This document shows positions 4,480 to 42,477 of a DNA stretch of 46,651 nucleotides, piece after piece; positions within the stretch are counted from its first letter, which is position 1; the number at the start of each line of letters is the position of its first letter. The notes under the pieces were generated by a model. That model searched no databases, was not told where the DNA came from, and saw nothing but the letters and a program-made list of their open reading frames with translations. The DNA comes from an uncultured Candidatus Poseidoniales archaeon (lineage in GTDB: Archaea; Thermoplasmatota; Poseidoniia; Poseidoniales; Poseidoniaceae). The DNA lies in contig CAJJCM010000002.1 of NCBI GenBank assembly GCA_905182635.1, positions 1-46,651 of the forward strand, written 5' to 3'. The position numbers and the translations under genes were made by a program.

Positions 4480-4509
4480 AAACGCCGTTTGTGAGGGCTA
4501 TCTTCGAAC

Positions 4510-5436
4510 TTAATACTCAAGGAGTCTCCAAGCATCTTGGAGGTCTCGAACGTTCACAAGGCCCTTGTCAGAGAGGCGGAATTCATCTCGCATGGTTGCG
4601 TAGACCAAATCTTGCCCAAGTGTTGGGGCGTGAATCCGAGTCCAATCGCCACCGTTTCCAAGCGCCATGATGCTGTAAGGGGGGGTCGAATCTTGAGCAC
4701 TCAATGTGTTTGCTGCATCGACGAGTTGGAGTGCGTCTTGGTGGTCTTTGAGTGTGCTGCAGAATTTGACGAGATCTCCACTGTCTGCGTTTGAAGTGAC
4801 AAAAGAGACGATATCTTCAGAACTTGGTGTCCCATTCATATCATGCTGCGATGCGATAATTTGACATTTTGCTGCTTGAGCGGCTTCAACAAGAGCTTTA
4901 CGATCTTTGGCTTTAATCGATAATTCGAGGTCAATCCATTTGACCTCTGACTCGATAGCGGATTGAAGAATGACAAGGCGTTGCTTCTCATCACCTGAGA
5001 AATGGCCGCCGTCACGAACGGAGCGAACTGAAAAAATAACTGGGAGGGCGATTGCTTCTTTGAGTGCGGCGATGGATTTTTCGACATCGACTTCTTCAAA
5101 GTCCATAACAGGCCATTCATTGACTGAAGGCATGGTCGAGATACGCTTGCCTTCCGCATCCTCGGTAATAGTTGCTTGAGGCTTTTTGAGATACAGCCGG
5201 TCAAAACGAACTTCAATCATATTGGCGCCTTGAATTCCTGCACGAGCAGCTTCGTCAACCATTGCTTTCACGGTTGTTTCTTCAAGAGATACGCATATCT
5301 TGGGGTTGGGCATACTTTCGGCGACTTTGGCACGCTTCTTAACGCTCTCGCTTGTATTGTTTTGAGGATTCAGTCCTAATGCGGAGGTTTTCCGGCTTTT
5401 TTTTGACCGCATTTGTTGGTGATTTTTCCGGCTCAA
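4510..5436 (-). CDS. aroD: 3-dehydroquinate dehydratase, type I
   Basis: KICVSLEETTVKAMVDEAARAG..MIEVRFDRL, PVIFSVRSVRDGGHFSGDEKQRL, IASQHDMNGTPSSEDI, GDLVKFCSTLKD are type I AroD-like. The true start may be the internal ATG at 5313 (MPNPKICVSL). Confidence 0.85.
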   Translation of the reverse strand: MSRKNHQQMRSKKSRKTSALGLNPQNNTSESVKKRAKVAESMPNPKICVSLEETTVKAMVDEAARAGIQGANMIEVRFDRLYLKKPQATITEDAEGKRISTMPSVNEWPVMDFEEVDVEKSIAALKEAIALPVIFSVRSVRDGGHFSGDEKQRLVILQSAIESEVKWIDLELSIKAKDRKALVEAAQAAKCQIIASQHDMNGTPSSEDIVSFVTSNADSGDLVKFCSTLKDHQDALQLVDAANTLSAQDSTPPYSIMALGNGGDWTRIHAPTLGQDLVYATMRDEFRLSDKGLVNVRDLQDAWRLLEY

Positions 5437-5505
5437 AAGAGTGTTCTTGAACGCGAAAAGTTAGCCTGAAATGCAGGTGGTTTGACACCCCTTTTGGAGT
5501 ACCTT

Positions 5506-5529
5506 TATACCCCCTCGGCACAGGGTATA
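5506..5529. promoter_or_regulatory. Inverted repeat TATACCC-N10-GGGTATA overlapping a TATA-like element upstream of gyrB
   Basis: TATACCC (5506-5512) and GGGTATA (5523-5529) are exact reverse complements with a 10-nt spacer; CTTTATAC resembles an archaeal TATA box. Lies in the divergent aroD/gyrB intergenic region. Confidence 0.45.
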
Positions 5530-5616
5530 GTTGTAGAGGGGCGTGAGGAGAGCGGAATAGGGGACTGCGGTCCAAAATTATCCTGTCAACTGCCTCATTT
5601 TTCAACTCATTTCTGA

Positions 5617-10330
<4,714 letters not shown>

Positions 10331-10416
10331 TCTTCCTAACGAAGCGACGCCTTCAAACATGATTCCATACTGTGCGTGTTTGTACCGGCCCCCGTCGGCC
10401 GTTGCGGTGATGTTTT

Positions 10417-11673
10417 ATGGATGAGCGCTCATTGATTTATAATTGGAATACTGTAGACTATGAACTCAACCGAAAACCAGCCAATCACCCCCATGGAGTT
10501 TGGTTCGATGATGAGACTCTTCGAGACGGATTGCAAAGCCCAAGCGCTCGAAACCCAACCATTGAACAAAAAATTGAATTACTCACTTTTATGGAAAATC
10601 TTGGCATTCAAAAGGTGGACCTTGGCCTGCCTGGCGCAGGTCCATACCATTTGGAACACATCGATGCATTGATGTCTCATATCACTGAAAATGATTTCAA
10701 AATCCGACCCGGTGCTGCAGTTCGAACACTCATGAATGACATCGAACCTTTGGTTGAGTTACAAGTCAAACATGGCACTCCAATCCAGGCCAGCGCTTTC
10801 TTAGGCACCAGCCCAATACGTCAATATACAGAAGGGTGGACAATCGAAAAACTTCTTACAACGATGGAAAAACCAGTTTCTTTTGCGATTGAAAACGATG
10901 TACAGGTTATGTTTGTCACCGAAGACACAACCCGTTCGAAACCGGAAGATGTCAAAATCATCTACCAACGTGCAATGGAATTGGGAGTCCGCCGTCTTTG
11001 TATTTGCGATACATGCGGTCACGTCACTCCAAACGGGGTCAAAAAGTTGTTACAATTCATCGATGAAGAAGTCATCAAAGATGCAGGCTACAAGCGTGCA
11101 GAAATCGAAGTTAACTGGCATGGTCACCAAGATCGTGGCTTGGGTGTTGCGAACAACATCGCTGCTGTTGAAGCAGGTGCAGACGTTATTCACGGAACCG
11201 CGTTGGGTGTCGGGGAACGCGCCGGCAATGCTCCACTTGACCTGACTTTGGTCAATCTCAAACTTCTCGGAGTGATTGATAACGACCTTACCCAACTGGG
11301 TGCTTATGTGAAAAAGGCAAACGAATACATCGAAGTACCTCTTCCTCGTAACTATCCCGTCTTTGGTATGGATGCTTTTGAAACTGGAACTGGTGTTCAC
11401 GCTTCTGCCGTGATCAAGGCCATGCGGAAGGGCAACAATTGGTTAGCAGACCGAGTGTATTCTGGTGTCCCTGCTGGAGATTTTGGACTGAAACAAGTTA
11501 TCCGTATTGGACATATGGCCGGTCGTTCAAACATCATTTGGTGGCTTGAACAAAACGGCTATGAAACTCCAGATGACCTTGTAAACCATATTTTTGAAGT
11601 GGCCAAAAGCCAGCGACGAAACATGGAAGAGATTGAAGTGAAGAACGCAGTTGATGCTTTCCTAAACGCTTGA
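10417..11673 (+). CDS. 2-isopropylmalate synthase / homocitrate synthase family (HMGL-like TIM barrel) lacking the LeuA regulatory domain
   Basis: FDDETLRDGLQSPSARNPTIEQKIELL, CDTCGHVTPNGV, VNWHGHQDRGLGVANNIAAVEAGADVIHGTALGVGERAGNAPLD are hallmark motifs. Exact substrate cannot be called from sequence. Confidence 0.85.
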   Translation: MDERSLIYNWNTVDYELNRKPANHPHGVWFDDETLRDGLQSPSARNPTIEQKIELLTFMENLGIQKVDLGLPGAGPYHLEHIDALMSHITENDFKIRPGAAVRTLMNDIEPLVELQVKHGTPIQASAFLGTSPIRQYTEGWTIEKLLTTMEKPVSFAIENDVQVMFVTEDTTRSKPEDVKIIYQRAMELGVRRLCICDTCGHVTPNGVKKLLQFIDEEVIKDAGYKRAEIEVNWHGHQDRGLGVANNIAAVEAGADVIHGTALGVGERAGNAPLDLTLVNLKLLGVIDNDLTQLGAYVKKANEYIEVPLPRNYPVFGMDAFETGTGVHASAVIKAMRKGNNWLADRVYSGVPAGDFGLKQVIRIGHMAGRSNIIWWLEQNGYETPDDLVNHIFEVAKSQRRNMEEIEVKNAVDAFLNA

Positions 11674-13005
11674 TTAGGCTTCAGCCTCTTCTTCGTTTTC
11701 GGAGAATGTGTCACCTTTGACAGCGTTCAATTCCTTTGTTACCGTCCATTCGGACTCAACACTTCCGCCACTCCATTCTGCATCGACAGCGACTTCGTCG
11801 ACTTCAGTCTCCTCTCTCCAAACGGGTTCACTTTGTGAGCCGCACACAAGGAAACGGCCATTGTCATCAATTTGGTCGTTCAACAGACGGAGATGCTTCG
11901 AAATCGGTAAGAAATGCCCAACAGGCATTCCTGCTGCAGTAAAGGGATTCGTGGCTGCGCCAATGATCAATCCATCTTCAGGGGCAACCACATCGACGGT
12001 AATACCCGGTGTCCCTGGGTCTGAGATGGTTGCGATGACTTCACCTTCACGCATTACTGAGCCTGCTGAGACAAACATGTCCAACAAGCCACTCTCGCCT
12101 GCTCGTAGCCAGTGTGAACCACTTGCGAGCATTCGGAATCGTGGGCGATGAGGATTACCATCGATCATACGCAGCGAACGAAGAACATTCAAGACACCAT
12201 GCATGGCGACCTTGACCGCTTCGTGGTCAAGGGAATTCGCCCCGCCACCTTCGTAGGTAATGACTGGGATGTCAAGTTCGATTGCTGCTTTGCGCAAAGA
12301 CCCAGAGGGTGGTTTTGAATCGAGAATAATTTCAATTCCAAAAGCTTTCGCAAGAATATTTGAACCAGCATGAGTTAATTTTGCACGAAGTTGTGGCATA
12401 TTGGAGCGACCTTTTCCAGCACTGTGCAAATCGACAATTGCGTCAACGTCGGAGAACAAATACTTCCATGTTTGAGCCGCCACCCGCCTTGTAGTGGAGC
12501 CTTTCATGTCTCCAGGGAAATTGCGATTCAAATCACGACCATCGGGGAAGTATCTCGATTTCGACCGATATCCGGGTAAGTTGACAATCGGCACAATACG
12601 AATGGTTCCAGCCAATTGCATAGGGTCGAGAGGTTTTCCAGAATCTGTAAAGTTGTTTGAAAGTAAGTGTGTACATGTTGAGGGGCCGGTCAACTCATCG
12701 CCGTGTACACCACCGAGAATGGTAATGGTTGGGCCAGGTCGAATGCCATGTAGAATCGTGACTGGAATCGGCCATGAATCCCCCAAATTGGTATTGAGGA
12801 GTGGGAGATGAACGGTTCGCATTGTACCCGGTTTGATGATTTTACGATAGAAGCGTGCATTGGGCCATTTTGCACTTCGATCCCATTCGGGCCGGTCTTC
12901 TAATTTGTGTGCCGCCATTGCTTCTTGAATGGCGTTTCTTCTTCGTTTTGGAAGTTCATGGGCAACACGAATTTTGGACTTCGTCCGTGGTTTCTTTGCT
13001 GCCAT
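11674..13005 (-). CDS. Succinylglutamate desuccinylase/aspartoacylase family zinc carboxypeptidase-like protein
   Basis: GPTITILGGVHGDELTGPSTCTHLL, YFPDGRDLNRNFPG, AIVDLHSAGKGR, plus a C-terminal VVAPEDGLIIG biotinyl-like segment. Confidence 0.8.
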   Translation of the reverse strand: MAAKKPRTKSKIRVAHELPKRRRNAIQEAMAAHKLEDRPEWDRSAKWPNARFYRKIIKPGTMRTVHLPLLNTNLGDSWPIPVTILHGIRPGPTITILGGVHGDELTGPSTCTHLLSNNFTDSGKPLDPMQLAGTIRIVPIVNLPGYRSKSRYFPDGRDLNRNFPGDMKGSTTRRVAAQTWKYLFSDVDAIVDLHSAGKGRSNMPQLRAKLTHAGSNILAKAFGIEIILDSKPPSGSLRKAAIELDIPVITYEGGGANSLDHEAVKVAMHGVLNVLRSLRMIDGNPHRPRFRMLASGSHWLRAGESGLLDMFVSAGSVMREGEVIATISDPGTPGITVDVVAPEDGLIIGAATNPFTAAGMPVGHFLPISKHLRLLNDQIDDNGRFLVCGSQSEPVWREETEVDEVAVDAEWSGGSVESEWTVTKELNAVKGDTFSENEEEAEA

Positions 13006-23022: not shown

Positions 23023-23213
23023 GTCTCTCAGTCGCTTGATTCGATAATCAACGGAAAGGAACAAAGTCCACGGCATTCTTTATGTCCTGTCGTCTCTCCT
23101 GTAGTTATCCATGGAGGTCAAGGGAGTGTACAGTCTCAACCAAACCGCACGAAAGCCCGCAGCCTGTTCTCCGTACAGGCCCCGAACGAACACGTCTGGC
23201 GGAGGTCTTTGCA

Positions 23214-24908
23214 ATGTCTGAAAAATACGAAACGCACGTTAAATCGATACTCGCAGAATGTCCTGATGCCAATCCGGAGGAAGTATCTGCAGCCTTTGCA
23301 AAATACGAAACAGAATTCTTTATTCCGCCACAAGATGCTATGCGTTCGATTCTTCGACGCTTCAAGGGTGAAACAACACCTACTCCATCAGCAGGGACCT
23401 CTGGTTCATCCTCTTCAGCACCTAAACCCACACGTAAGGTGAGCCGATTAAGCGAATTGAAAGGCGACGACCGAGAAATCGAGATTGAAGTGGAAATTAT
23501 TTCCCACAATATTCGTGACCAAACGATTCGAGGCGAGGAAAAGCAAATCGCCTTTGGACTTCTTGAGGATAACCCTTGGGAAGAGAATGGTGAGAAAAAC
23601 CGTTGGGAATACAAAGATTGGGGCCCGAACTCCAATATTACTCCCGGTTCAGTCGTTCGTATTGAAGGTGCTTCAGTCAATGAATATCAGGGGAAGATGT
23701 CGTTGAACATCAATCAATCCACCCGTATCGCTGTTATTCGTGAAGGAACACGCCCTGTGACCGCCCCTGGCGAGGCTCAAGACATCTCGAGTTTGCCATC
23801 TGAGGGCTATGTCTGCATTGTTGGACGAATTCTTGCCACTCGCCCCGACCAGATTCACCGTAAGGATGGTACGGGCTCAATTGATATCATTCGAGGCCGC
23901 CTCGCAGATGAAACAGGTACTATTGGTTTCCTTTCATGGGAGCCTCTTGAACACGAAGTAGGAACGCTTCTCAAGATTGAAAGTGCACAAGTTCGAACGT
24001 TCCGAGATACACCTGAACTCAACTTCGGGCGGACAACAAAAATCGAAGTCTATCACGATAAGAATTTTGCAAATGTCGACGCACTCTCTGAACAGACCGT
24101 ACTGACTTTATCTGAACTCCGAGACGGAGCACGAGATGTTGACGCAGTCGTTCAAATTACTGAATGGGCAAAACGTTCGTTCACCCGTGATGGTGAAGAG
24201 CGCTTCCTCTGGTCGGGTCAAATCGCTGACCCAACCGGCCGTTGCAGAATGAGTGCATGGAGTGAATTGCCCATTACTGAAGACCAATTGCCGTTAACTG
24301 TTCGTCTCAAAGGCGTACGTGTGCGTGCCTGGCAAGGCATCCCCGATATCACCATTGACACAATCGATCAAGTCGAAATACTCGATGCACCTCCTTGGGA
24401 CAGCGAATTGGATTTGAAAAACCATACCGTTGAAGTCGCTTTGCATGAACTTTCTACCGGTGCAAGCCGAATCGGAATCTCGACCAGTGCAATTGTGGTT
24501 AGTGTTCGAGAAGATTCTGGCTTTATCAAACGGTGCACAGAATGCCGTCGAGTTCTCCGAGAAGGAGCTTGTGCTGATCACGGACCAAACGATGGTAACA
24601 ACGATATACGCCTGCGTTTGGCTATTGATGATGGACGTGCTAGTGTCTCTTTGTTGACGAATAAGGACGCAACATTGAGTCTTCTTGGAATGAATGAATC
24701 CGAACTTCAAGGTGCTATTGACGATGCTGGACAGATTGCTTTTGTTCAGTCCTTGCGTGAAAAGATGCTCGGGCGTAAAATCAATGCTTCAGGCCGTACC
24801 ATTGTCGATGAACAAGGTGCTATGCTGCTCGCAGATGGTGCTTCAATGATTGACGAAGATGCAGGATTACGGGCGACTGAAATCCGTGCTCAATGGAGGG
24901 TTGCTTGA
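23214..24908 (+). CDS. Replication protein A, multi-OB-fold ssDNA-binding protein with zinc finger
   Basis: OB-fold-like segments (RLSELKGDDREIEIEVEIIS.., YVCIVGRILATRPDQIHRKDGTGSIDIIRGRLADETGTIGFLSW.., LSELRDGARDVDAVVQITEWAKR..WSGQIADPTGRCRMSAW), Zn motif CTECRRVLREGACADHG. ATG at 23214 (MSEKYETHVKSIL) preferred over the 23082 start. Confidence 0.88.
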   Translation: MSEKYETHVKSILAECPDANPEEVSAAFAKYETEFFIPPQDAMRSILRRFKGETTPTPSAGTSGSSSSAPKPTRKVSRLSELKGDDREIEIEVEIISHNIRDQTIRGEEKQIAFGLLEDNPWEENGEKNRWEYKDWGPNSNITPGSVVRIEGASVNEYQGKMSLNINQSTRIAVIREGTRPVTAPGEAQDISSLPSEGYVCIVGRILATRPDQIHRKDGTGSIDIIRGRLADETGTIGFLSWEPLEHEVGTLLKIESAQVRTFRDTPELNFGRTTKIEVYHDKNFANVDALSEQTVLTLSELRDGARDVDAVVQITEWAKRSFTRDGEERFLWSGQIADPTGRCRMSAWSELPITEDQLPLTVRLKGVRVRAWQGIPDITIDTIDQVEILDAPPWDSELDLKNHTVEVALHELSTGASRIGISTSAIVVSVREDSGFIKRCTECRRVLREGACADHGPNDGNNDIRLRLAIDDGRASVSLLTNKDATLSLLGMNESELQGAIDDAGQIAFVQSLREKMLGRKINASGRTIVDEQGAMLLADGASMIDEDAGLRATEIRAQWRVA

Positions 24909-25837
24909 TGCAATCTGGAACACGTGCAAAGCGCCAACCTGCTTGGCACATGCTTGCCTCTGAATACAGTGAAGCTACGCTCAATGAGAAAGGCTCAGGT
25001 GAATATGACCCTTCCTTTGTCATCACGAAACTTGGCGCTAAAGTCAACAGAGTGGTCGTAGCGGGACTTTTGGAACGACTTGAAGTTCGAGAGACATCCA
25101 ACGGTTCAACACTCCACCAGGGACAAATGCGTGACCCATCAGGGGTCCATTACTTTTCAGTTGGAGATTATGCAACTGAATCAATGCGTGAACTTACGTT
25201 GGTTTTGGCTAAGAAACTCGAAGCTGGAGAGCCGGTACTTCTCCTCATGGTGGCTAAATCAAAATGGTATCAAACCGATGAAGGAGCAATCTATACTTCA
25301 CTTCGTCCTGAGGAAGCATGTGAGATTGATGCGCAACAGTATGCTCTTTGGCTGACTCGAACCTGTGAAGACACTCTACAGAGAATGAAGCATTTTTCTG
25401 ATTCGTTGTCGGCTGAACCTACACGAGAAGGATTGATTGGCGCAGGAATTCCGGAACACATGGTCGATGGGCTGCTTGTGTCTCGAAATCATTATGGTGA
25501 GATTGATATTGAGAATTATACCCTCAACATCATGCAAGCTTTGGATATTGCTGAAGGACGCATGGAGGCAGCCAGCCAGCCAGTCGCCGCACCTGCTCCA
25601 AATCAAGATGCAGATGCAGGTGAAGTTGCTACAGGTGACGAATCTGAGGTAAAGGAGACGATTATCTCGATTATTGAGCAACTTGACCAAGGCGATGGTG
25701 TCGATTTTGAAACTGTGTTAACCAATACAGTCGCACGTGGATTTGACCGAAGTTTGGCTGAAGATAAACTCGATGAACTCTCAAATGAAGGCACACTCCA
25801 CGAACCAAGATTTGGTTGGTTTAGAATCGTAGCCTGA
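24908..25837 (+). CDS. RPA-associated protein (COG3390-like) with C-terminal winged-helix domain
   Basis: RAKRQPAWHMLASEYSEATLNEKGSGEYDPSFVITKLGAKVNRVVVAGLLERLE..MRDPSGVHYFSVGDY is typical of euryarchaeal RPA-associated proteins; TGATG overlap with the rpa stop; C-terminal MCM-like wHTH. Confidence 0.8.
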   Translation: MQSGTRAKRQPAWHMLASEYSEATLNEKGSGEYDPSFVITKLGAKVNRVVVAGLLERLEVRETSNGSTLHQGQMRDPSGVHYFSVGDYATESMRELTLVLAKKLEAGEPVLLLMVAKSKWYQTDEGAIYTSLRPEEACEIDAQQYALWLTRTCEDTLQRMKHFSDSLSAEPTREGLIGAGIPEHMVDGLLVSRNHYGEIDIENYTLNIMQALDIAEGRMEAASQPVAAPAPNQDADAGEVATGDESEVKETIISIIEQLDQGDGVDFETVLTNTVARGFDRSLAEDKLDELSNEGTLHEPRFGWFRIVA

Positions 25838-28828: not shown

Positions 28829-30703
28829 TTAACCACGTAAGCGGGCGAGTAAGTCATCGATAGCATCGATTTTTCCGCGAGCGGAATTGAGTCGGTCAGA
28901 TGCATCACTGACGGATTCAGCAATGACGATTTCCACATCCGGTTGTTGTTCAGTTTTCGGCTTGAATGCTTCTGCAAGTGCTTTCAGTTCAGTCACAATA
29001 GCGTCGACTTGATTATCTGATATCATGATTCCAGGTGCAATCCGAGGAATTTCCGAAGGGGAAATAAAACCTAATTCAGCGCCAATGATTCCAGCACAAG
29101 CAAGAACCCGTGGTCGTAGGTCAATCGTGTTGACCTCATAGCCTTTCGATTCAAGGAATCGAATCACCAAGGCTTGTTGTGAGTCTGAGAAACTTCCTTC
29201 ACTTGATTCAAGGATAGTTTCCACCAATTCTTCAAACCCAGCAATGTTTCGTTCAAGGCGGTCAACCGTCATTCGTTCAATATCGGTGAAATGAACAGCA
29301 CCATGTTGGAGGACACGAAGAATACGATTACGACGTGCAATCGATGGGTCTTGTAGTGCTTCTTCTTGATGGATTTCTATATGCAGGTCGAAAAGGGCAT
29401 GGAGTCTTCCAGAAATACTTGGGATTCTCAAATCGAGACCCATGTCATGTCCAATTTGTTCAAAAGTCATTCGTGCACGAACTAAATCACCATCCGAAGA
29501 TGCGAGGGTATTATTCAACTGACCGCGGAGCACATCACGAGCGTTTTCAAAATTACGCAGTGCTTCACGCTCTCTCCAAGAGTTTGGCATTGCAAAGACT
29601 GCATCCTTTTCAGTTTGAGATCGGAACTCAAGTTCCATCAAAGTATTACGAATTCCGTCGCTTACCGCAGGGATTTCAACTGCAAAACCATGGCTGGAGA
29701 GGCTGCGGATGAAAGCTTCGAGGTCTTCTCCATCACTGGTGCTGCTCACTGCTAAGAAATCTCTACCTGCTGATTCAATTTCTGCTGCCCGAGCTGTCAA
29801 CTCAAGTAAGACTGCTTCAACTTCGAGGCTATGTTCGACAACCTCTGCAACATGAGCACTTTGAACCATTGCTGGTGTGCTATCAGTGTCGATTTCCCTT
29901 TGTCCTGCTCGAAGAACATCATCGATTGAGGCAGCAAGTGGGGCGCGTGAGATTGGAATGCCTTCTTGAGCAAGTTCAGTTCGCATTTCAGTTTCTTCTT
30001 CGAACGTCCATCCTTCTGGATGTTGAGACACAAATGTCTCGGCCGTTTCGAGTACGACATCCTGTTCATCAATGTGAGTTTGTCCGGGCGATTCATTCTT
30101 AGAATCTTCAGTTGGACTCGGTATTTCAACGGCTGAATCGCCACTTCGTGGCCGACGCAGACTCTTCTTGACTTTACCCCAGCCACCTTGTTGATAGGCC
30201 AAAACGCCCGCGATACGAACAAGTAAAGCCTGTTTATTCCCAGAGAGGGGTAATTCCAATGTCTTACACAATTCATGCAATTCATCGCGAGTCAATGAGT
30301 CCAGTGATTCAGGAACGAATTGTTTTGGGTCGTGATTAAGATGCAGATACAGGCGTTGACGCCGAGCACGAACAGAGCCTGATTTTTTGATACCAAATAT
30401 TCCAAGAATTTCACCGATTTCGGCGTTCATGAGGTTTTTAATTCCATTTGGTGAAAGGTCCCATTCGTCCAATATAAGTTGTTGAATCAATCGTCCTCTG
30501 ACCACTTCAACAGAGCCATTTTTTGGTAAGTTGTAAGTGACCGCTAGCTCTTTGAGTCCATCAAAACGCGCTTGATAGAGTTCGTTCAAGAGTTCGCCTT
30601 TTGCAGTCACAGTCTCACCTACAGTGGAGTTTCGGTTCAAAGGGGTATATGTGTCTTCGCTGTGTTGCGATGCGGAAAAGGGCAATTCTTCGACTGTTTT
30701 CAT
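28829..30703 (-). CDS. SAP/HeH-like repeat protein with large helical C-terminal region
   Basis: Three consecutive SAP-like repeats: FDGLKELAVTYNLPKNGSVEVVRGRLIQQLI; MNAEIGEILGIFGIKKSGSVRARRQRLYLHL; LTRDELHELCKTLELPLSGNKQALLVRIAGVL. ATG at 30703 preferred over the 30763 start. Confidence 0.65.
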   Translation of the reverse strand: MKTVEELPFSASQHSEDTYTPLNRNSTVGETVTAKGELLNELYQARFDGLKELAVTYNLPKNGSVEVVRGRLIQQLILDEWDLSPNGIKNLMNAEIGEILGIFGIKKSGSVRARRQRLYLHLNHDPKQFVPESLDSLTRDELHELCKTLELPLSGNKQALLVRIAGVLAYQQGGWGKVKKSLRRPRSGDSAVEIPSPTEDSKNESPGQTHIDEQDVVLETAETFVSQHPEGWTFEEETEMRTELAQEGIPISRAPLAASIDDVLRAGQREIDTDSTPAMVQSAHVAEVVEHSLEVEAVLLELTARAAEIESAGRDFLAVSSTSDGEDLEAFIRSLSSHGFAVEIPAVSDGIRNTLMELEFRSQTEKDAVFAMPNSWREREALRNFENARDVLRGQLNNTLASSDGDLVRARMTFEQIGHDMGLDLRIPSISGRLHALFDLHIEIHQEEALQDPSIARRNRILRVLQHGAVHFTDIERMTVDRLERNIAGFEELVETILESSEGSFSDSQQALVIRFLESKGYEVNTIDLRPRVLACAGIIGAELGFISPSEIPRIAPGIMISDNQVDAIVTELKALAEAFKPKTEQQPDVEIVIAESVSDASDRLNSARGKIDAIDDLLARLRG

Positions 30704-30775
30704 CCCTCCATTTGTGTGTAGAGTGTAGATTCTACGGGCAATGGTTTGAAGAGTATGAAGCACTGGAGAGTCGTG

Positions 30776-31357
30776 ATGGCAAGAACTGTGAAGGCTACAA
30801 AACTCGCTCTCAAGGAAGCGAATGGGCTTGTCGAATCCCTACGGGAACTGGTTTGGTCAGATTTGAAAACTCAGTATGCTGGTTTTGAAGAAATACTTCA
30901 TTCACGAACAAGTGATGCTGAAGAAGCAATTCTTGATGCCACCAAAGGAAAGTTGGCAATTATTGCTGGAATTGGCGTGATGCGAACAGAACTCGAACGA
31001 GCTCAACGTCGATTTTCCCGCTCAAATGACCCCAATGAGTTACGAGAACTTTTAGTCGATTTAGGAGGTCGAATCTCCCGTTTGAGAGAAGCCAATGACA
31101 ACATTGTTGAATCGCTTAAATCAGTATTGAACCCAAACTTGTCCGGCGTTGAAATTGTTGAAAAGTTTGCTTCTGACCTTCAACGCTCAGCCGGGACATG
31201 GGAGCGTAACGGCCGCGAAATCGATGAATCGATTCTCGAATTATGCGATGGTAATGAACCGGCTGAACTGGGTGACTTTGAGCAACACATTACCAAACAA
31301 GGGTATGGAGCATTACTCGAACATCCTTCTCATTCCTCTTCTGATGAAGAGGCTTGA
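30776..31357 (+). CDS. Hypothetical predominantly helical protein with acidic C-terminal tail
   Basis: Intact ORF from internal ATG 30776 (MARTVKATKLALKEANGLVESLREL); ends PSHSSSDEEA. No family recognised. Confidence 0.6.
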   Translation: MARTVKATKLALKEANGLVESLRELVWSDLKTQYAGFEEILHSRTSDAEEAILDATKGKLAIIAGIGVMRTELERAQRRFSRSNDPNELRELLVDLGGRISRLREANDNIVESLKSVLNPNLSGVEIVEKFASDLQRSAGTWERNGREIDESILELCDGNEPAELGDFEQHITKQGYGALLEHPSHSSSDEEA

Positions 31358-32580
31358 AGTGAATGGAGATTCAATAAAGCGGGCCTTGCAAGGCTGTATT
31401 CTTCGGGAAGTCCAGGGTATTTCCTCACCATTTCTTCATGTTCAGTTTGCATATTTTCAAGCAGGATTGAAAATTCTTTGAGAACGTTAACCATTCCCAT
31501 GTGGCTTTCTTCAAGTTCGCAAATACGTTCTGCACTTGCAGTTACAGTCCCAGAAAAGTTCAACGTTTCAATTTTTATTTCCAAGCGTGGACTCGTAGAC
31601 AAACCCTTCTTTGGAACTGACCGGGCCCATTTTTCAGCCCCAATTAAACGCTTACCACTTACTTTCCCTTGAGTAAGCGTTGAGTCAAGTAATGAATCAT
31701 TGGTGAAGTCGTCATTCGAGCGCTGTGCTTCGTTGAGAATCGTCTTAAATTTACGCTGTTCGACAAAGATGCCAACAATTGGATGAATTTCTTCAGGCAA
31801 CGAGTCAAGTAAGGCCCCTTCGATTCTATGAGCGAGGTATGCACTTGGATCGAACATCGGCAGAACAATCGCACTCGGGAATCCCGTACGGCTGACCAGT
31901 AAAGTGAATCCATACAATGGTGGTGGGATGAAATGGGTGCGTTCAGGGTTTTCACGTTGCAGGCCAAGTGTATGACGGCGTGATTTGAACTTCAATGCCG
32001 AATGTTCACCTCGTGAGACGATGAATCCTTCCAATAATTGATCTTGGCGACATTCTTCAATCCAATGGATTCTATCTTCTTCATCTAAATTGAGATACGC
32101 ATCAAGTTTGCCAATACGGTCAGCAAATTGTTCACTCGTCAGTAGGATGAGGTCGTTACGAAGACGGCGCATTTGCCGTCGAAGCAGTTCATTGTCACAG
32201 ACGACTAAGGCCTGTGAACACAAATATTCTGGTTTGTCACCAGAGACGAGGACCCATGTTGGTTCTCGGCGTGGTAGGATTCCAACGATCGATAATCCCT
32301 CAACATCGAGGTTTCTCCAATCCAAGGCACTCATTGCTACAAGGTCGCCAGTACCCTTTTGGAGAGTTTCAATTGCTGATTCAATATGGGGGAGTTGGAC
32401 CAATTTGAAATCAAATTCCTTGCGGTTTTGTTCGATGGTTCGTTCAATTTGAAGACGTACACCATCACGGCGTGATGCAGTGGTTAGGACTTCAAGTCGA
32501 ACCTTCTCTGTCAACACATCACCTCGGCGAGGATGAATCCTCACATTACAAGGCCGGAGACTACGGGTTAAGAAGGACAC
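31330..32580 (-). CDS. Divergent porphobilinogen deaminase (HemC)-like protein with C-terminal extension
   Basis: IVGILPRREPTWVLVS ~ HemC 'ICEREDPRDAFVS'; ELLRRQMRRLRNDL ~ 'SLRRQCQLAERRPDL'; RIGKLD ~ 'RLSKLD'; HFIPPPLYGFTLLVSR ~ 'ISLPAVGQGAVGIECR'. GTG start at 32580 inferred by matching the HemC N-terminus. Confidence 0.6.
   Translation of the reverse strand: MSFLTRSLRPCNVRIHPRRGDVLTEKVRLEVLTTASRRDGVRLQIERTIEQNRKEFDFKLVQLPHIESAIETLQKGTGDLVAMSALDWRNLDVEGLSIVGILPRREPTWVLVSGDKPEYLCSQALVVCDNELLRRQMRRLRNDLILLTSEQFADRIGKLDAYLNLDEEDRIHWIEECRQDQLLEGFIVSRGEHSALKFKSRRHTLGLQRENPERTHFIPPPLYGFTLLVSRTGFPSAIVLPMFDPSAYLAHRIEGALLDSLPEEIHPIVGIFVEQRKFKTILNEAQRSNDDFTNDSLLDSTLTQGKVSGKRLIGAEKWARSVPKKGLSTSPRLEIKIETLNFSGTVTASAERICELEESHMGMVNVLKEFSILLENMQTEHEEMVRKYPGLPEEYSLARPALLNLHSLQASSSEEE
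31335..31352. terminator. Perfect 7-bp hairpin within the convergent coding overlap
   Basis: CCTCTTC-TGAT-GAAGAGG, inside the 28-nt 3' overlap of the two convergent genes. Confidence 0.35.
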
Positions 32581-32595
32581 CCCTGTAGGAGAGTC

Positions 32596-33579
32596 GTGGC
32601 CAGTGTTGAGTTGAAAGCCAGTGACCGCCTCGAAACAATGAGGTTTTTGGTCGATGCCGAGCTTGAGGCGTTGATTGAAAATGAAATCAAGAACGGCTCG
32701 GGACAAGTTGCTGAACTGTGTGGCTCAGTACTCCTTGCAGGTGGTAAACGCCTTCGCCCATTATTGATTCTCCTGGCCCATGAAATCGCTGGAGGTACTG
32801 ATGTCGAGGAGATTATGCCGCTTGCACTGGCATCTGAAATGATTCACACAGCAACCTTAGTCCATGATGATATCAATGATGAAGCCTCACATCGACGAGG
32901 AATCGAAACAATTCATTCTCGAGTCGGTCTTCCAAAAGCTGTAATTGCTGGTGATTGGTTATTTACACAAGGTTTCGCACTTGGTGGGCAATATGATGAA
33001 CGAATTGTCCGTATCTTAGCCCAATATTGTGCTGACCTTGCAGTTTCAGAATTCGAACAACTTGACCATGTTCTTGACCTTACGACTTCTCCCGAGGATT
33101 ATCTCAGTATTGTTCGAGGAAAAACGGCTGGACCTTTTGCAGCTGGGTGCTATGCTGCGGGCTTAGTAGCGGGACTTTCTGAAGAGCAAGCATCTTCGCT
33201 CAAATGTTTTGGAATGGAACTCGGAATCGCCTTCCAATTGGTCGATGATTTACTTGACTTACGAGGTGATGAACGAATGGGTAAACCCAGAGGAGCGGAC
33301 GTCATTGAAGGGAAAATGACACTCCCCTTGATTCATGCATTGACTCTTTCCCACGGTGAAAAGCGACAACGTCTCGCCTACATCATAGAAAATTTTACCG
33401 ATGATTCGTTTGATGAATTGATGGTGTTGCTCAATCATTCTGGCAGTTTGCATTATGCAGAAATATTAGTGAGTACTCATTTAGAACGAGCAATCGCAGC
33501 ACTCGAAATTTTTCCAGAAAGCGATGCAAAGAGATTGATGTTCCATGTCACTGATTATGTCATGCGTCGACATGTGTGA
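32596..33579 (+). CDS. Polyprenyl synthetase (likely geranylgeranyl/farnesyl diphosphate synthase)
   Basis: GGKRLRPLLILLAHE, LVHDDINDEASHRRG (first Asp-rich motif), FQLVDDLLDLRGDE (second Asp-rich motif), GKPRGADVIEGKMTLP. GTG start at 32596; ATG at 32638 possible. Confidence 0.9.
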   Translation: MASVELKASDRLETMRFLVDAELEALIENEIKNGSGQVAELCGSVLLAGGKRLRPLLILLAHEIAGGTDVEEIMPLALASEMIHTATLVHDDINDEASHRRGIETIHSRVGLPKAVIAGDWLFTQGFALGGQYDERIVRILAQYCADLAVSEFEQLDHVLDLTTSPEDYLSIVRGKTAGPFAAGCYAAGLVAGLSEEQASSLKCFGMELGIAFQLVDDLLDLRGDERMGKPRGADVIEGKMTLPLIHALTLSHGEKRQRLAYIIENFTDDSFDELMVLLNHSGSLHYAEILVSTHLERAIAALEIFPESDAKRLMFHVTDYVMRRHV

Positions 33580-33587
33580 GGGATTAT

Positions 33588-34733
33588 ATGGCTCGTAAAG
33601 AGGTCGAACATCGCCAAGTGATCGTCATTGGTGCAGGGCCTGCAGGTTCCGCATGTGCGCAACGACTTGCTGAAGATGGCATTGATGTTCTGATGTTAGA
33701 ACGTAGAGAGATTGTTGGAAACCCTGCTCAATGCGGTGAATGTATACCGAATTGGGGTGAGGTTGTTGGTACTTTTTCTCATCTTGATGACCATCAATGG
33801 CTAAAAGATTATTTTGAATTCCCTGACCGTTTAAGACTTCATGATCTTGATAATATGCGAGTCTTCCTTCCTTCGGGAAAAGCCTACCATTTCGATTTGG
33901 ATGCTTTCGCAGGTCATCGTTTACACTTTGATGGATTCCTTTGTGACAAGGCGATTAACGCTGGTGCTGAGATTCATACCGGTGAAGCACTGACTCGGAT
34001 TCAACACCAATCAAAACTTGACCGAGACCTTTTGATTACGAGCCATGGCCGGTATTCGTTTGATTTCTTGATTGATGCAAGTGGTTCATTGGCACATGTT
34101 GCTCGGCTACGCCATGGTGGCGATGAACGCTATAGACCAAAAGACCAAGTTCCTACTGTCTATGCTCAAGTCCAGGGAAAAGTACCAGAAACCTTTGATG
34201 TATTTTTGGGTTCAGTTGCCCCCTCTGGCTATGCGTGGATTATTCCAAAGGGTCCAGACACTGCAAATGTTGGTATTGGAGTGCGTGCAGGATATTTGGA
34301 AGGTAATTTGAAAGACCATTTGATTGAATTTTGTGCCTCTTTAGATTTTGAAATACTTTCTTGGGGTGGAGGCTGGATTCCGATGGGTGGTCCAGTGAAA
34401 ACAATGGTTGATGGAACAACATTGGCTGTTGGTGATGCGGCTGGACTCGTCATGCCAAGTAACGGTGGCGGTATTTCTCAAGCGATTATTTCTGGATGTT
34501 TTGCAGCAGAAGCGATTCTTGACAATCTTCGAGATGGAGCGTCTTTGACCATGTATGAGACTCGAGTTCGGGCCTCGATGGGGAGGGCGTTGAAGAATTC
34601 CCTTCGTTCCAAGAATATGGGCTATGCGTTCTTCAAAGGGGACTTGGTTACAGAAGCGTTGTTGAGAATCCTTGGTCCAATCGGTGGAATCAAACGAGCC
34701 ATGGAGTGCGATAAGCCGATGTGGCTTTTCTGA
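33588..34733 (+). CDS. Geranylgeranyl reductase family FAD-dependent oxidoreductase
   Basis: VIVIGAGPAGSACAQRLAEDGIDVLMLERREIVGNPAQCGECIP (Rossmann FAD plus GGR-like motif), TTLAVGDAAGLVMPSNGGGISQAIISG; follows the polyprenyl synthase gene. Confidence 0.88.
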   Translation: MARKEVEHRQVIVIGAGPAGSACAQRLAEDGIDVLMLERREIVGNPAQCGECIPNWGEVVGTFSHLDDHQWLKDYFEFPDRLRLHDLDNMRVFLPSGKAYHFDLDAFAGHRLHFDGFLCDKAINAGAEIHTGEALTRIQHQSKLDRDLLITSHGRYSFDFLIDASGSLAHVARLRHGGDERYRPKDQVPTVYAQVQGKVPETFDVFLGSVAPSGYAWIIPKGPDTANVGIGVRAGYLEGNLKDHLIEFCASLDFEILSWGGGWIPMGGPVKTMVDGTTLAVGDAAGLVMPSNGGGISQAIISGCFAAEAILDNLRDGASLTMYETRVRASMGRALKNSLRSKNMGYAFFKGDLVTEALLRILGPIGGIKRAMECDKPMWLF

Positions 34734-36366: not shown

Positions 36367-37818
36367 TTGGAGTCTGGGACCATCATGGGGAGAGGTTGGG
36401 TGAAGCGTTGGACCTCATCTGGCAAAGATCACCGACGTAACGACCTTCGTATTCTTCGAATCACGCCGAGGTCGAATTCGACTCCGATTCAATGGCGGTT
36501 ACCGCCTTCAAAGAGCCACTTAATTCGTGCACTTGCTTTGTTTTCTCAGACCCAACAACACGTCACATTGGAGAACGTCGCCTCTGCAGGTGACGATGTG
36601 AGGGCAATGCGTTGCAGCCTTGCGCAAATGGGTGTTCATTTCGATGACTATGACCGTGAAGGTCAGTTACTTCAGCAAAAGAATCCGATGGACCTTGGCC
36701 CACACCCCAATTCGGTACAGTGGGTCCTTACCGGTGTCGGTCCGTTCGGTTTCAAACGTCCAGCCAGCGTACTCAATGCTGCGAATTCAGGCACAGCCCT
36801 CCGGTTTTTAGCAGGTATTGCAGCCCGAATGGAAGGTCCAATCATGTTGGATGGTGACCATTCACTGCGTCAGAGAGACTCTGATGCCCTGTGGGATTCG
36901 CTCAAACAGGCTGGGGTAGAGGTCTCGATTGGCCAAGGAAAAGAACGTTTACCTGTACTTCTCAGTGGTCCTTGGAAAAAGGAGAAACTTGAACAAGGCA
37001 TCGAACTTGACATCACCCGTTCAAGCCAACCGCTTTCGTCATGGATGCTGGCATCCGCAGCACTTCCAGTGGACATACAACTCAACCTTCAGGGTAAAGG
37101 TGTCTCAAACCGTCATTCAAAATTGACGGCTGAAATGATTCATCTCACCGGTGGAAAGGTTGAACTGGAAGGCGGCCAGTGTATGCTTTCACCTTGGGAA
37201 CCATCGTTCGAGGGGACCTACACGGTCCCTGGTGATGCTTCAATGGCTTCGTTTGCATTCTTGGCGACTCATTGCCTCGATGCAGAAGTAGAACTCCACG
37301 GTTGGCCGGGCGATGAACAAGCCATCGGGCATGAACTTCTTTCCAAATACGCTATAGAATGTGGCATTAAGTGGGATGGTGACCTGTTAAAAAGTATTGG
37401 TTCAACCCTCCCAGTTACGTTGGATGTCATCGATTCAAATGACATTCTACCCCCTCTTGCTGCATTGCTTTCACTAGGGCCTGGTGGGCGAATCAGCGGA
37501 GCTGCACATGCGGTTCACAAAGAGAGTGACCGCTTATCTCGAACAGTAGAATTGCTCAGTTTCTTTGGAATTCACGCAACCTTGCACGATGATGGAATCG
37601 AAGTCGAAGGCAATCAAAAGCCAACCATGCCCCAACAACCAGTGCCGACATTCAACGACCATCGTTTATTCATGACAGCAGTACTTCTTGCCTCAAAAAC
37701 AGGTGGTGAAGTGATTGGACATACACTTCATCATGTTGCTGATGAAGCCTTTGTGCAGCGTTTACAAGAGGCTGGTGTTCAAATTGAAGCGACTACAACA
37801 CCCTCGCTTGCTGATTAA
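36367..37818 (+). CDS. aroA: 3-phosphoshikimate 1-carboxyvinyltransferase (EPSP synthase)
   Basis: LPPSKSHLIRALAL, LNAANSGTALRFLAGIAA, DSNDILPPLAALLSLGPGG, HKESDRLSRTVELLSFFGI, FNDHRLFMTAVLLA. Exact start uncertain. Confidence 0.92.
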   Translation: MESGTIMGRGWVKRWTSSGKDHRRNDLRILRITPRSNSTPIQWRLPPSKSHLIRALALFSQTQQHVTLENVASAGDDVRAMRCSLAQMGVHFDDYDREGQLLQQKNPMDLGPHPNSVQWVLTGVGPFGFKRPASVLNAANSGTALRFLAGIAARMEGPIMLDGDHSLRQRDSDALWDSLKQAGVEVSIGQGKERLPVLLSGPWKKEKLEQGIELDITRSSQPLSSWMLASAALPVDIQLNLQGKGVSNRHSKLTAEMIHLTGGKVELEGGQCMLSPWEPSFEGTYTVPGDASMASFAFLATHCLDAEVELHGWPGDEQAIGHELLSKYAIECGIKWDGDLLKSIGSTLPVTLDVIDSNDILPPLAALLSLGPGGRISGAAHAVHKESDRLSRTVELLSFFGIHATLHDDGIEVEGNQKPTMPQQPVPTFNDHRLFMTAVLLASKTGGEVIGHTLHHVADEAFVQRLQEAGVQIEATTTPSLAD

Positions 37819-39827
37819 CCGTGACGGCCAAAATGGTGGTCGAGAGAATCTAAAGGAAGTCGTAATGCGGTCGGACGCCCATGTACGCAAGCCCATGGAT
37901 TGGTGATACGTCGCATGTCATCGACCAATCTCCGCATTTCAGGTAAAGTCAACTTTTCATTCGCTTTGACTGCACCTCGGCATGCATTGAGAAATGCGAG
38001 GTGGTCTTTTCGTCGGTCAACCGTTTCCAGTGGTGCTCCATCTTCGGCGGTGTCTTGCAGTAAGTCGAGTAGAAATGGAATCAATTCTTCACCCGCCAGC
38101 AAGTGAGGTGCGGCGTCAATCACCCATCCATTGTCATTTTCACGCAACGAAAACCCAACATCACTCAACGTATCCACCGCTGCAGACATTCGTGCTGATT
38201 GGCGGGCATCGAGGTCGAGTTGAATCGGTTCAAGTTTGGTTTGACTCTCCCACAATGAGGCATCGTGCCGCAAACGTTCGTATCGAATACGCTCATGGAG
38301 TGCATGTTGGTCGATCAACAGCAATTCACCTTCGGCTTGAACTAAGATGTAAGAATCTGCGAATTGAGCCAAAGGTTCCATTTCAGGTAATTCATTGATT
38401 ATGCCAGTGAGAGGTTGTTCCTCATTCGGAGAACTTCGATGCCCACAGCCTGCATGACGATGAAGGGTCCTTTCAGCAGGTGATAATGCCGGAGCGGTTG
38501 GTTTCTCATCCATTCCAGGTAATGTTTCTTGGGCTTCTGGAGCCGTTGATTGGGGGCGCTTCTTTTCAACAGACTCAAGTTCAGTTGCTTCTTTTCCATG
38601 AAGATTCAATTGCGCACCTGCAGCAATTGCCCATGCTGGAGGTGCTTCGATTTTCGATTCATTGGGAAGCACAAGGGCAGGAGCGCCTGCAGCCGCGTCC
38701 AATGGGTTGACTGAAGGCGTATCTACAGCAGAAAGGTGTTCTTGAATCGAAGTCACTTTCTGCATGCCAAGGCCTTGTAGCCCGGGAATGCCACCGGCAG
38801 CATCAGGTTGAGTCGGGACGGATTCAAGTGTGTGAGCGATGGCACGTTCAAGACGCTCCAATACACGCCAGGAATGGCGAAGACGAACTTCTCGCTTGGT
38901 AGGGTGGACGTTAACATCGACTTCTTCGGGTGGTAAAGTCAGTGAGAGGACGGCAATGGGGTGTCTTCCTTGCATCAATCGGGTGCGGTAACCTCGGCGT
39001 ATGGCTTGAAGGAACGGTCCTGCAGCAACGGGGCGTCCATTGATGAGAATATGGATGTCATCGCCTTTACCTCGGGTGATATCTGGCGTACTGATCCATC
39101 CACTCCACCGTTCTTGACCCGGTGCTTCAGCATCGTTTCCAGGTGGGGTTATTTCGAGCATTGACTCAACTTGGCCACCGAGTAAGTCGAAGAGCCTGTC
39201 CATCATAGATTCAGCCGGAGGAATGTCGAGCATGACTCGTTCATCGATGACCAGGCGGAATCCAGTGAATTGGTGGGCCATTGCATGTGCTACGACCACA
39301 TCGACGACTCGAGCGTTTTCAGTGGCAGGGCGTCGCTGGAATGCCAAACGGGCGGGAGTATTACGGAACAGGTGCTCGACATCAACACGGGTGCCATGTT
39401 GCATGCCAAAAGGTTCTACAAGCCCTTTTTCACCGTTCTTCATCGCTATTGATTTTCCTTCTTTTCCCTTGGGGCGACTTGAAATTGAGAGATGAGATAC
39501 CATGCCGATACTCGCCAAAGCCTCACCGCGGAATCCGAGCGTATGAATCGAATTCAAATCCTCGGCCTTTTGCAATTTTGAGGTTGCATGTCGGTCCAAT
39601 GCTAAACGCAAATCTTGTTCATCGATTCCGTTTCCATCATCTTCAATACGAATCAGGTCAAAACCTCCACGCTCAACGGTAATTACAAGACGAGTAGCAC
39701 CTGCATCAAGGCTGTTTTCAAGCAATTCTTTGACCACTTGTGCTGGTCGTTCAACGACTTCTCCAGCTGCAATATGCCCGATGGTTTTTTCATCAAGTTG
39801 TTGAATTCTGTTCGGTTCAGACATCAT
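37815..39827 (-). CDS. mutL: DNA mismatch repair protein MutL
   Basis: IGHIAAGEVVERPAQVVKELLENSLDAGATRLVI, IEDDGNGIDEQDLRLALDRHATSKL, TLGFRGEALASI; C-terminal endonuclease motif DQHALHERIRYE. Confidence 0.95.
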   Translation of the reverse strand: MMSEPNRIQQLDEKTIGHIAAGEVVERPAQVVKELLENSLDAGATRLVITVERGGFDLIRIEDDGNGIDEQDLRLALDRHATSKLQKAEDLNSIHTLGFRGEALASIGMVSHLSISSRPKGKEGKSIAMKNGEKGLVEPFGMQHGTRVDVEHLFRNTPARLAFQRRPATENARVVDVVVAHAMAHQFTGFRLVIDERVMLDIPPAESMMDRLFDLLGGQVESMLEITPPGNDAEAPGQERWSGWISTPDITRGKGDDIHILINGRPVAAGPFLQAIRRGYRTRLMQGRHPIAVLSLTLPPEEVDVNVHPTKREVRLRHSWRVLERLERAIAHTLESVPTQPDAAGGIPGLQGLGMQKVTSIQEHLSAVDTPSVNPLDAAAGAPALVLPNESKIEAPPAWAIAAGAQLNLHGKEATELESVEKKRPQSTAPEAQETLPGMDEKPTAPALSPAERTLHRHAGCGHRSSPNEEQPLTGIINELPEMEPLAQFADSYILVQAEGELLLIDQHALHERIRYERLRHDASLWESQTKLEPIQLDLDARQSARMSAAVDTLSDVGFSLRENDNGWVIDAAPHLLAGEELIPFLLDLLQDTAEDGAPLETVDRRKDHLAFLNACRGAVKANEKLTLPEMRRLVDDMRRITNPWACVHGRPTALRLPLDSLDHHFGRHG

Positions 39828-42477
39828 GTGTTCCTCCAAGCATTTTCTTTAGTCTGTAGAGTGCTTCATGTGCTTGTCGTGGCGAAAGTTCATCAGCATC
39901 GATCTGTGAAAGATAAGCCAGCGTTTCTTTCTCTTCGGAACTGATGCTCGGCACAGGTTGCGTCGTTCCATTTTTTTGTGTCAGGGCGGCTGCAGCAAAA
40001 TATCCCATCAAACTGGATTGACCATCAGCACGAGCAGAAGGTGTTCCCGACTCTCCTGCCTTGGCGCCGTGGGCTTGTTGTTCTAGGAACGCAAGAAGGT
40101 CACTTGCCCGTTCGACAACCGGGCGTGGTAATCCCGCTAAAGCGGCGACTTGCACTCCATATGAATCGTCACATGGCCCATCTGCAACCGTGTGAAGGAA
40201 TCGAAGTTCGCCGTCTGCTTGCGCCACTTGAACATGGACATTGACCAACCCATCGACTTCGCCTTCCAAGCCAATCAATTGATGATAATGAGTGGCGAAT
40301 AAAGTGCGCGAGCCAATTCTCTTACAGATGTCTTCAGTCACTGACCAGGCGATTGACAAACCATCAAATGTTGAAGTTCCACGACCAATTTCATCGAGTA
40401 AAACGAGAGATTGCGAAGTTGCTCTCCGAAGAATGTGTGCGACTTCAATCATTTCCATCATGAAGGTTGAACGTCCACGACGCAGGTCATCACTTGCTCC
40501 AACTCGAGTAAATATACGATCGACTAATCCAATTCTTGCTTTCTTAGCAGGGACAAAACTTCCGGTTTGGGCAAGAATAGTCAGCAGCGCAGTTGTCCGA
40601 AGGTAGGTCGATTTACCACCCATATTCGGTCCAGTAATCAATAGGAAGTTCCGTTTCTTTTGCATTTGAATATCATTGGGGACAAATCCAGATTGCATTT
40701 CGAGGGCTGGGTGTCGGGCCCCCTCCACCTTGAAGTGGTGACCGTCGGTTAATTCTGGTCGAGTCCATGAACGGGAGCGTGCGATAGAGGCAAAACATTG
40801 GAGGACGTCGATTGCAGCAACCCGACCAGCAATATTCGCCAGTGCTTGTGCATGTATTCGACTCCGCTCACGCAGAGAAGTAAATTCGCGATATTCCAAC
40901 TCTTTGACCTTGGTATCAGCAGTGAGCAATAGGTCGTCTCTTTGTGACAATTCCTCAGTCACGTATCGTGAACCATTGGTCATCTGTTGCTTTCTGCGCC
41001 ATTCTTCGGGAACTTTTACTTCATTGGATTTGGTCACTTCGATAAACCAACCAATTTGTCGATTCATTCGTACTTTCAGAGAAGGTATCTCCAATTCAGC
41101 ACGTAACTTGGATTCTAAATCACTGAACCACGAATGTCCGGATGCTGAAGTCTCTCGGAGTTCATCAATCGCCGAATGTAAGCCAGGGCGGATCAATGAG
41201 CCATCACGAATACTGAGAGGTGGTTCATCGACGAGTGTTCGGCGAATATCTTCTGCAAGGTCGCTCAAGGCATCTAATTCATGAGAAAGGTGTCCTAAGA
41301 GTGGATTTTCAGTTTCGTTGCAGAGGTTGATGATTGCCGGCATACGTTCCAAGGCATCGGAAACGGCCAGTAAGTCGCGACCGTTTGAACGGTTATAGGC
41401 GAGTTGAGTTGCCAAACGTTCCATATCTCGAAGTCCACGGAGCGCTTCTCGTATCCCATCAAGGCGTCGAGCAGAACGCGAAAGTGAACCAACTGCTTCA
41501 TGGCGAGCACTGATCGCTTCAAGATTGCAAAGTGGCCGTAGAATCCAAGTTTTCAACAATCTTCTTCCCATCGAACTCCGGCATGCATTCAATGTTGAAA
41601 GTAGGCTGCCTTCGAATTCACCAGCAAGTGTCGATGTTAATTCCAAGTTCCTCAAAGTTGTTTGGTCCAGTACCAGGTGTCCAGATTCATCGATGATTTC
41701 GATCTCACGAAGTGGAATCTCATCAGCAATATGCATGGTCGCAAGATAGTCAGCGGCTAAACCAGCAGCCGCCAAAGCAAGTGGGGCGTCATCTAAATCC
41801 AAATGCCCTAAATCAGCGACTTTGAGGACTTTTTCAAGTCGATCCCTGCGTTTATTTTCACTGGCTCTGTGCTGACTGATGAGCACGCTATCGAGGTGTG
41901 AGAAGAGGGCGCACAAGGCAGTATCTTCAGCATCTTGAGGTGAAACTACGATTTCAGTTGGTCGCCAACGCATGATTTCATCCAGTGCTCGAGCAAATCG
42001 ATCTTCGCCATTCAAGTGTGATGCCCATGCCTGTCCTGTAGACGCGTCGACAATGCCGAGGCCAAGTGCAGACTTTCCAAGTGTTACAGATACCAAGAGG
42101 GAACGTTCATCTGTACCGAGTAATGATTCCTCATACAAACTTCCTGGGGTGTAGACTCTCGCAACGATACGTTCCAGTAACTTCGCCCCTTCTCTGAGTT
42201 CTTGTTCTTGCTCTGCCACAGTGACTTTGTGTCCTGCTTTGAGCATCACCCGTATATTATCTTCAAGTGCATGCCAAGGGAATCCAGCCATTTGAATCGG
42301 CTTATCGGCTTTTTTATCACGTGAAGTTAATGCGAGACCGAGGACTTCAGAACCAACCACAGCATCCTCGTGAAACAATTCATAGAAGTCACCCATACGA
42401 AAGAAAAGAATAGTGTCGGGATGTTCCTCCTTGATGTCCATAAATTGGTCCATCATCCCCCTTTTTTCCATGCACAA
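39817..42477 (-). CDS. mutS: DNA mismatch repair protein MutS (MutS1 type)
   Basis: FFRMGDFYELFHEDA (mismatch-recognition F-x-E), LLITGPNMGGKSTYLRTTALLTILAQTGSFVPA, STFMMEMIEVAHILRRATSQSLVLLDEIGRGTSTFDGLSIAW. Confidence 0.97.
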   Translation of the reverse strand: MCMEKRGMMDQFMDIKEEHPDTILFFRMGDFYELFHEDAVVGSEVLGLALTSRDKKADKPIQMAGFPWHALEDNIRVMLKAGHKVTVAEQEQELREGAKLLERIVARVYTPGSLYEESLLGTDERSLLVSVTLGKSALGLGIVDASTGQAWASHLNGEDRFARALDEIMRWRPTEIVVSPQDAEDTALCALFSHLDSVLISQHRASENKRRDRLEKVLKVADLGHLDLDDAPLALAAAGLAADYLATMHIADEIPLREIEIIDESGHLVLDQTTLRNLELTSTLAGEFEGSLLSTLNACRSSMGRRLLKTWILRPLCNLEAISARHEAVGSLSRSARRLDGIREALRGLRDMERLATQLAYNRSNGRDLLAVSDALERMPAIINLCNETENPLLGHLSHELDALSDLAEDIRRTLVDEPPLSIRDGSLIRPGLHSAIDELRETSASGHSWFSDLESKLRAELEIPSLKVRMNRQIGWFIEVTKSNEVKVPEEWRRKQQMTNGSRYVTEELSQRDDLLLTADTKVKELEYREFTSLRERSRIHAQALANIAGRVAAIDVLQCFASIARSRSWTRPELTDGHHFKVEGARHPALEMQSGFVPNDIQMQKKRNFLLITGPNMGGKSTYLRTTALLTILAQTGSFVPAKKARIGLVDRIFTRVGASDDLRRGRSTFMMEMIEVAHILRRATSQSLVLLDEIGRGTSTFDGLSIAWSVTEDICKRIGSRTLFATHYHQLIGLEGEVDGLVNVHVQVAQADGELRFLHTVADGPCDDSYGVQVAALAGLPRPVVERASDLLAFLEQQAHGAKAGESGTPSARADGQSSLMGYFAAAALTQKNGTTQPVPSISSEEKETLAYLSQIDADELSPRQAHEALYRLKKMLGGTHDV

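Follow-up and report, generated by a model that had tools for sequence, protein, structure and literature searches.

The window, the whole 46,651-nucleotide stretch of DNA analyzed here, belongs to a genome bin of the Poseidoniaceae (Marine Group II archaea) that is about 67% complete. On its minus strand lies a gene for a HemC-like protein, divergent from a GGPP synthase gene and adjoining a same-strand gene for a SAP-domain protein (Table 1), an arrangement that we found at 18 of 18 loci from both Poseidoniales families. The SAP protein carries N-terminal SAP motif(s) and was predicted by AlphaFold (AF2) to have an all-helical C-terminus; a Foldseek search of the PDB with its C-terminal part returned no fold match (best E value, 1.3). 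In a phylum survey of 245 genomes at least 80% complete, with the source genome added as the center, the SAP protein was confined to the same 77 Poseidoniales genomes as the HemC-like protein, a perfect co-occurrence that could also arise if a fixed block of genes were passed on vertically. The C-terminal part of the SAP protein has a mean identity of 84% in close relatives, and many second-family members have a shorter form of the protein. Elsewhere in the window, two adjacent genes at 23082-25837 encode proteins (608 and 314 aa) that match no Pfam family and are kept beside the SAP gene or T2SSE/T2SSF pilus genes in both families, and adjacent MutL and MutS homologs with a complete bacterial-type domain make-up lie at 37815-42477 on the minus strand of this archaeal genome.

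Table 1. Features of the HemC-like locus, with positions in the window
Feature	Position	Strand	Basis and remarks
SAP-domain protein	28829..30610	-	Probable GTG start at 30610 (aligned start regions), ORF to 30763; Pfam SAP; downstream of the HemC-like gene
Small convergent gene between the SAP and HemC-like genes	30746..31357	+	Poseidoniaceae loci only; no Pfam family
HemC-like protein, putative pseudoenzyme	31330..32514	-	394 aa, TTG start; ortholog starts, Shine-Dalgarno, hhalign, AF2/Foldseek, dN/dS
Strand-strand-helix, proposed rest of HemC domain 3 (residues 309-357)	31444..31590	-	Forced global hhalign and AF2; moderate confidence
Cofactor-loop-equivalent region (Cys position = Ile243), then family-specific insert (residues 231-285)	31660..31824	-	Profile alignment, residue table, family alignment
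Short divergent promoter shared by the HemC-like and GGPP synthase genes, with the 5' leaders of both	32515..32595	.	About 80 bp; alignment of 12 orthologous regions
GGPP synthase	32596..33579	+	Pfam polyprenyl_synt, 4.8e-61; divergent neighbor in every locus examined
Geranylgeranyl reductase-type flavoprotein	33576..34733	+	Directly follows GGPP synthase at almost every locus examined

The minus-strand open reading frame at 31330-32580 is real, as the original prediction held. The start codon varies among orthologs (TTG, GTG, or ATG), and these share in-frame stops on the 5' side followed by an invariant CCGAGGTGA a few nucleotides before the ATG, GTG, or TTG. Given these upstream stops and the Shine-Dalgarno-like CCGAGGTGA, the real start is therefore the TTG at 32514. 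It follows from the same evidence that VRIHPRRGDV, proposed earlier as an N-terminal match to HemC, is part of an untranslated 5' leader with a ribosome-binding site and not of the protein. The aligned interval between the HemC-like and GGPP synthase genes contains, in addition to CCGAGGTGA, an invariant 12-nt block (TCCTTCTTAACC in the minus-strand reading), which may simply be the core promoter. The CCGAGGTGA ribosome-binding site is unusually constant ahead of weak start codons (TTG/GTG).

The window protein alone gave nothing significant against Pfam and NCBIfam, and an hmmsearch of the PDB with a profile of its close relatives found no HemC match; the relation to HemC is visible only by wider alignment, profile-profile comparison, and fold. 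The family profile aligned locally via hhalign with 20 archaeal canonical HemC sequences over 179 collinear columns, from domain 1 through into domain 3, at 24% identity and with a score of 122 bits (P = 2e-16), compared to 19.8 bits for a reversed profile and 13.5 to 18.3 bits for six column shuffles. The curated cutoff of PF01379 was passed by some orthologs, and a member from the second (Thalassarchaeaceae-type) family scored 20.8 bits against the cutoff of 22.1. Searching a small sequence set with the HemC-like family profile (hmmsearch) recovered canonical HemC at an E value of 1.6e-9. The AF2 model, built from 20 window-related sequences, had a mean pLDDT of 67 and a pTM of 0.54, with pLDDT values of about 60 to 94 in domains 1 and 2. 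When this model was compared to the PDB with Foldseek, ranks 1 to 32 were all porphobilinogen deaminases (E values of 7.8e-13 to 4.4e-10), with a clear gap to the next folds, which began at 3.8e-8. These alignments were near full-length, and the TM-scores were modest (0.40 to 0.61), as expected given that domain placement is uncertain in the model. The HemC fold in the original prediction was thus borne out by both the controlled profile alignment and the deaminase matches of the model, rather than the model showing neither a deaminase nor a periplasmic-binding-like fold, and the protein is almost certainly a true, very divergent homolog of HemC. In our tree the HemC-like family formed one clade (100/100) on a long stem, apart from the HemCD fusion proteins, and its attachment point among archaeal HemC was unsettled. 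The idea that the family descends from the HemCD fusion found in some of the same genomes gained no support, given the separate clades and a family profile that matched other HemC and not HemCD.

Roles have been assigned in HemC to Cys242, Asp84, Arg149, and Arg155: Cys242 binds the dipyrromethane cofactor, Arg149 and Arg155 serve chain elongation and exit, and the D82A and D82N mutants of the Bacillus megaterium enzyme are inactive (PMC8561815). We mapped residues through the profile alignment for 33 diverse family members, using the E. coli HemC numbering. Lys83, Arg131-132, Arg176, Gln198, and the mobile loop (residues 45-57) were also included, which we take to be functional positions of HemC. 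At the position of Cys242, a Cys was present in 20/20 canonical HemC sequences versus 0/33 family members, which have Leu, Met, Ile, Glu, or Val (Ile243 in the window protein). The absence of the cofactor Cys that had been predicted was therefore confirmed, none of the diverse orthologs retaining it. Several other proposed correspondences did not hold up. The Asp thought to be kept in SALD occupies the catalytic Asp84 position in only 11 of the 33 members, and the RIGKLD motif is not conserved even inside the family. The Arg-Arg pair described as kept appears to be displaced: in the ungapped profile alignment, the Arg131-132 positions are Leu or Ile, and the family's own Arg112-Arg113 falls two residues later. 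The Lys83 position is variable, that of Arg149 (Glu, Asn, Val, or Lys) is never conserved, and that of Arg155 is Arg in 10/33 members, an uncertain assignment given that the region aligns with gaps. Arg176 and Gln198 are lost, and the mobile active-site loop is deleted in the global profile alignment. Overall, the family has lost most of the Arg and Lys residues with which HemC binds its substrate. Retained from HemC are the structural positions Pro197 and Gly248, plus Arg209. The family also has an invariant set of its own (Leu51, Asp57, Arg113, Gln114, Arg117, Arg119, Arg168, Arg179, Arg180, Arg209, Glu316, and Gly322), and position 181 is mostly His. Judged by its sequence, the HemC-like family is a HemC homolog that fails the tests for a porphobilinogen deaminase, and it is very probable that the window protein is not one.

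Following residue 252, there is a family-specific insert of variable length, about 55 residues in the window protein and far fewer in most relatives, and then a predicted strand-strand-helix (residues 310-356) where the remainder of HemC domain 3 would be expected. The C-terminal region of the AF2 model has pLDDT values of about 50 to 68. On the basis of the forced global alignment onto domain 3, together with the near full-length Foldseek alignments, we read this part of the protein as domain 3 with an insert. What had been described as a non-HemC extension of about 170 residues is thus probably mostly domain 3 resuming after the insert, and not a foreign addition, as far as a forced alignment and a moderate-confidence model can indicate.

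The dN/dS values between orthologs were 0.02 to 0.10, which shows strong purifying selection on the HemC-like gene, although synonymous sites were near saturation in most pairs. In the 245-genome survey, the protein was present in 77/77 Poseidoniales genomes (42/42 Poseidoniaceae and 35/35 of the second family) and in none outside this order, where the one further weak match was a canonical HemC; five genomes from a different family within the class did not have it. A sample of Poseidoniaceae had the protein in 55 of 58 genomes, the three misses being bins that are 57-77% complete. Canonical HemC, by comparison, occurred in only 15 of the 77 Poseidoniales genomes with the HemC-like protein.

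Heme synthesis genes were patchy in the 58-genome sample: canonical HemC (as the HemCD fusion) and HemB were each detected in 18 genomes, HemA in 17, and ferrochelatase in 22, with COX1 in 56. Among the 55 genomes with the HemC-like gene, 37 were without HemA, HemB, and HemC and 18 had at least one of them, and the presence of the gene was independent of the pathway (Fisher P = 1). One single-contig genome that is 96% complete (G011) has no HemA, HemB, or HemC, yet the HemC-like gene is present. Some Poseidoniaceae carry a complete bacterial-type heme operon, as seen at 3406-11938 of locus L118 (G035:C12:84000-98000). The order of this operon is hemA-hemCD-hemB-hemL-hemE-hemF, and the gene after these encodes an amine-oxidase-type flavoprotein, probably the protoporphyrinogen oxidase (hemY). 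Given that the operon occurs in about 18 of the 58 genomes though COX1 occurs in 56, most of the sampled Poseidoniaceae may, from their gene content, be heme auxotrophs. The view that the protein is an exapted tetrapyrrole enzyme gained strength from its universal presence irrespective of the heme pathway, the survey of HemA, HemB, and HemC in the same genomes showing these to be mostly missing while the HemC-like gene stays.

The explanation that we favor, and that we find moderately probable taken as a whole, is that the protein descends from archaeal HemC, has lost catalysis, and is kept as an anion-binding pseudoenzyme together with the SAP protein. The hinged cleft of HemC would be kept as a non-catalytic binding site, with its pocket geometry taken from the predicted model. 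A new basic set (Arg113, Gln114, Arg117, Arg119, Arg168, Arg179, Arg180, mostly His181, and Arg209) would line this cleft and could hold an anionic ligand. The partner of the HemC-like protein would be the helical SAP-domain protein encoded at this locus, through which the complex would be recruited to nucleic acid. On present sequences and models, the odds are about even that the HemC-like protein binds a ligand without catalysis and has the SAP protein as its partner. Historically, heme synthesis would have been lost in the lineage, leaving HemC without a task and its fold free for a new role, and a complete heme operon with the fused HemCD would have been gained separately by some lineages. 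A more specific version, in which HemC was orphaned by the loss of heme synthesis in Poseidoniales ancestors and became a core non-tetrapyrrole component, a cleft-shaped sensor or scaffold that joins the lineage-specific SAP protein in acting on DNA or RNA, is tentative and on balance doubtful.

The protein might instead be a tetrapyrrole sensor, carrier, or salvage protein that binds imported heme or linear tetrapyrroles in archaea that do not make heme but have heme-copper oxidases. Such a role would be consistent with the HemC ancestry, the conserved basic residues, and the detection of COX1 in nearly all Poseidoniaceae compared to HemA, HemB, or HemC in 17 to 18 of 58. However, the gene is equally present with and without the heme operon, it was never beside heme genes in the loci examined, and most of the pyrrole-binding residues of HemC are lost, so we regard this role as unlikely. 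Regulation of the divergent GGPP synthase and reductase genes, with the HemC-like cleft sensing a metabolite and the SAP protein binding the shared promoter, would account for the invariant divergent arrangement in two families, the conserved block in their short shared promoter, and the SAP domain. Given that SAP domains are not typical of transcription factors and that any core promoter is expected to show conserved blocks, this appears quite unlikely. Strong purifying selection and a sharply conserved set of new polar residues could also be expected of a new enzyme whose cleft has evolved another reaction, but the family has no invariant Cys or Ser, and its few invariant acidic residues (Asp57 and Glu316) form no recognizable catalytic arrangement, making a new activity improbable.

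Two further readings have very little probability. A divergent yet working HemC would be in keeping with the homology and with the lineages that have no canonical HemC. Against it are the loss of the cofactor Cys, Asp84, Arg149, the Arg131/132 register, and loop 45-57, the absence of HemB and HemA as well, which would leave such an enzyme with no substrate, and the retention of the HemC-like gene in genomes that have HemCD; the residues and the missing HemA and HemB largely rule this out. It is similarly hard to credit that a generic periplasmic-binding-protein-like fold came to resemble HemC by convergence only. Type II binding-protein folds do come next in the Foldseek list (E values of about 1e-7), but the top matches are all deaminases aligned over nearly their full length, and the profile match reaches domain 3, which binding proteins do not have.

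HemC is among the most conserved of the tetrapyrrole enzymes. The universal and selected presence of this homolog in an archaeal order that is among the most abundant in the ocean suggests a core function beyond those known. The heme pathway itself is patchy, given that most of the sampled Poseidoniaceae have heme-copper oxidase genes and no detectable HemA, HemB, or HemC. Since some orthologs pass the PF01379 cutoff, automatic annotation may label them HemC and overstate heme synthesis in Poseidoniales. In the literature searched, with few subscription journals covered, we found no HemC homolog that is universal in a lineage and without the cofactor Cys, nor, within the same limited search, a report of this family or of heme auxotrophy in Poseidoniales. 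A study of 199 Poseidoniales-associated families does not name the HemC-like family in the portion available to us (PMC9258230).

Collectively, the family can be set beside three known systems. It resembles HemC/hydroxymethylbilane synthase (PF01379, TIGR00212) in its homology over the 179 collinear columns, its predicted three-domain fold, and the structural Gly and Pro and the Arg206 equivalent that are kept. It differs from HemC in having no cofactor Cys, conserved catalytic Asp, or mobile loop, in the changes at the Arg149, Arg131, Arg132, Arg176, and Gln198 positions, in the insert within domain 3, and in a presence independent of heme genes. The HemCD fusion of Poseidoniaceae (PF01379 and PF02602) belongs to the same protein family and is at times found in the same genome, but it keeps the HSxKD motif, as well as the GGGC cofactor motif in the L118 copy, is placed in the heme operon, and forms a separate clade. 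Type II periplasmic-binding-protein folds (MetQ, SsuA, and the effector domains of OxyR/LysR) appear, from the model, to have in common with domains 1 and 2 a hinged two-domain cleft, although they have no HemC domain 3 and gave a weaker Foldseek match. They show that such folds can act as non-catalytic ligand binders, and if the sensor or scaffold reading is true, the Poseidoniales protein would represent a ligand-sensing module derived from HemC, in principle much like the bacterial regulators with binding-protein folds.
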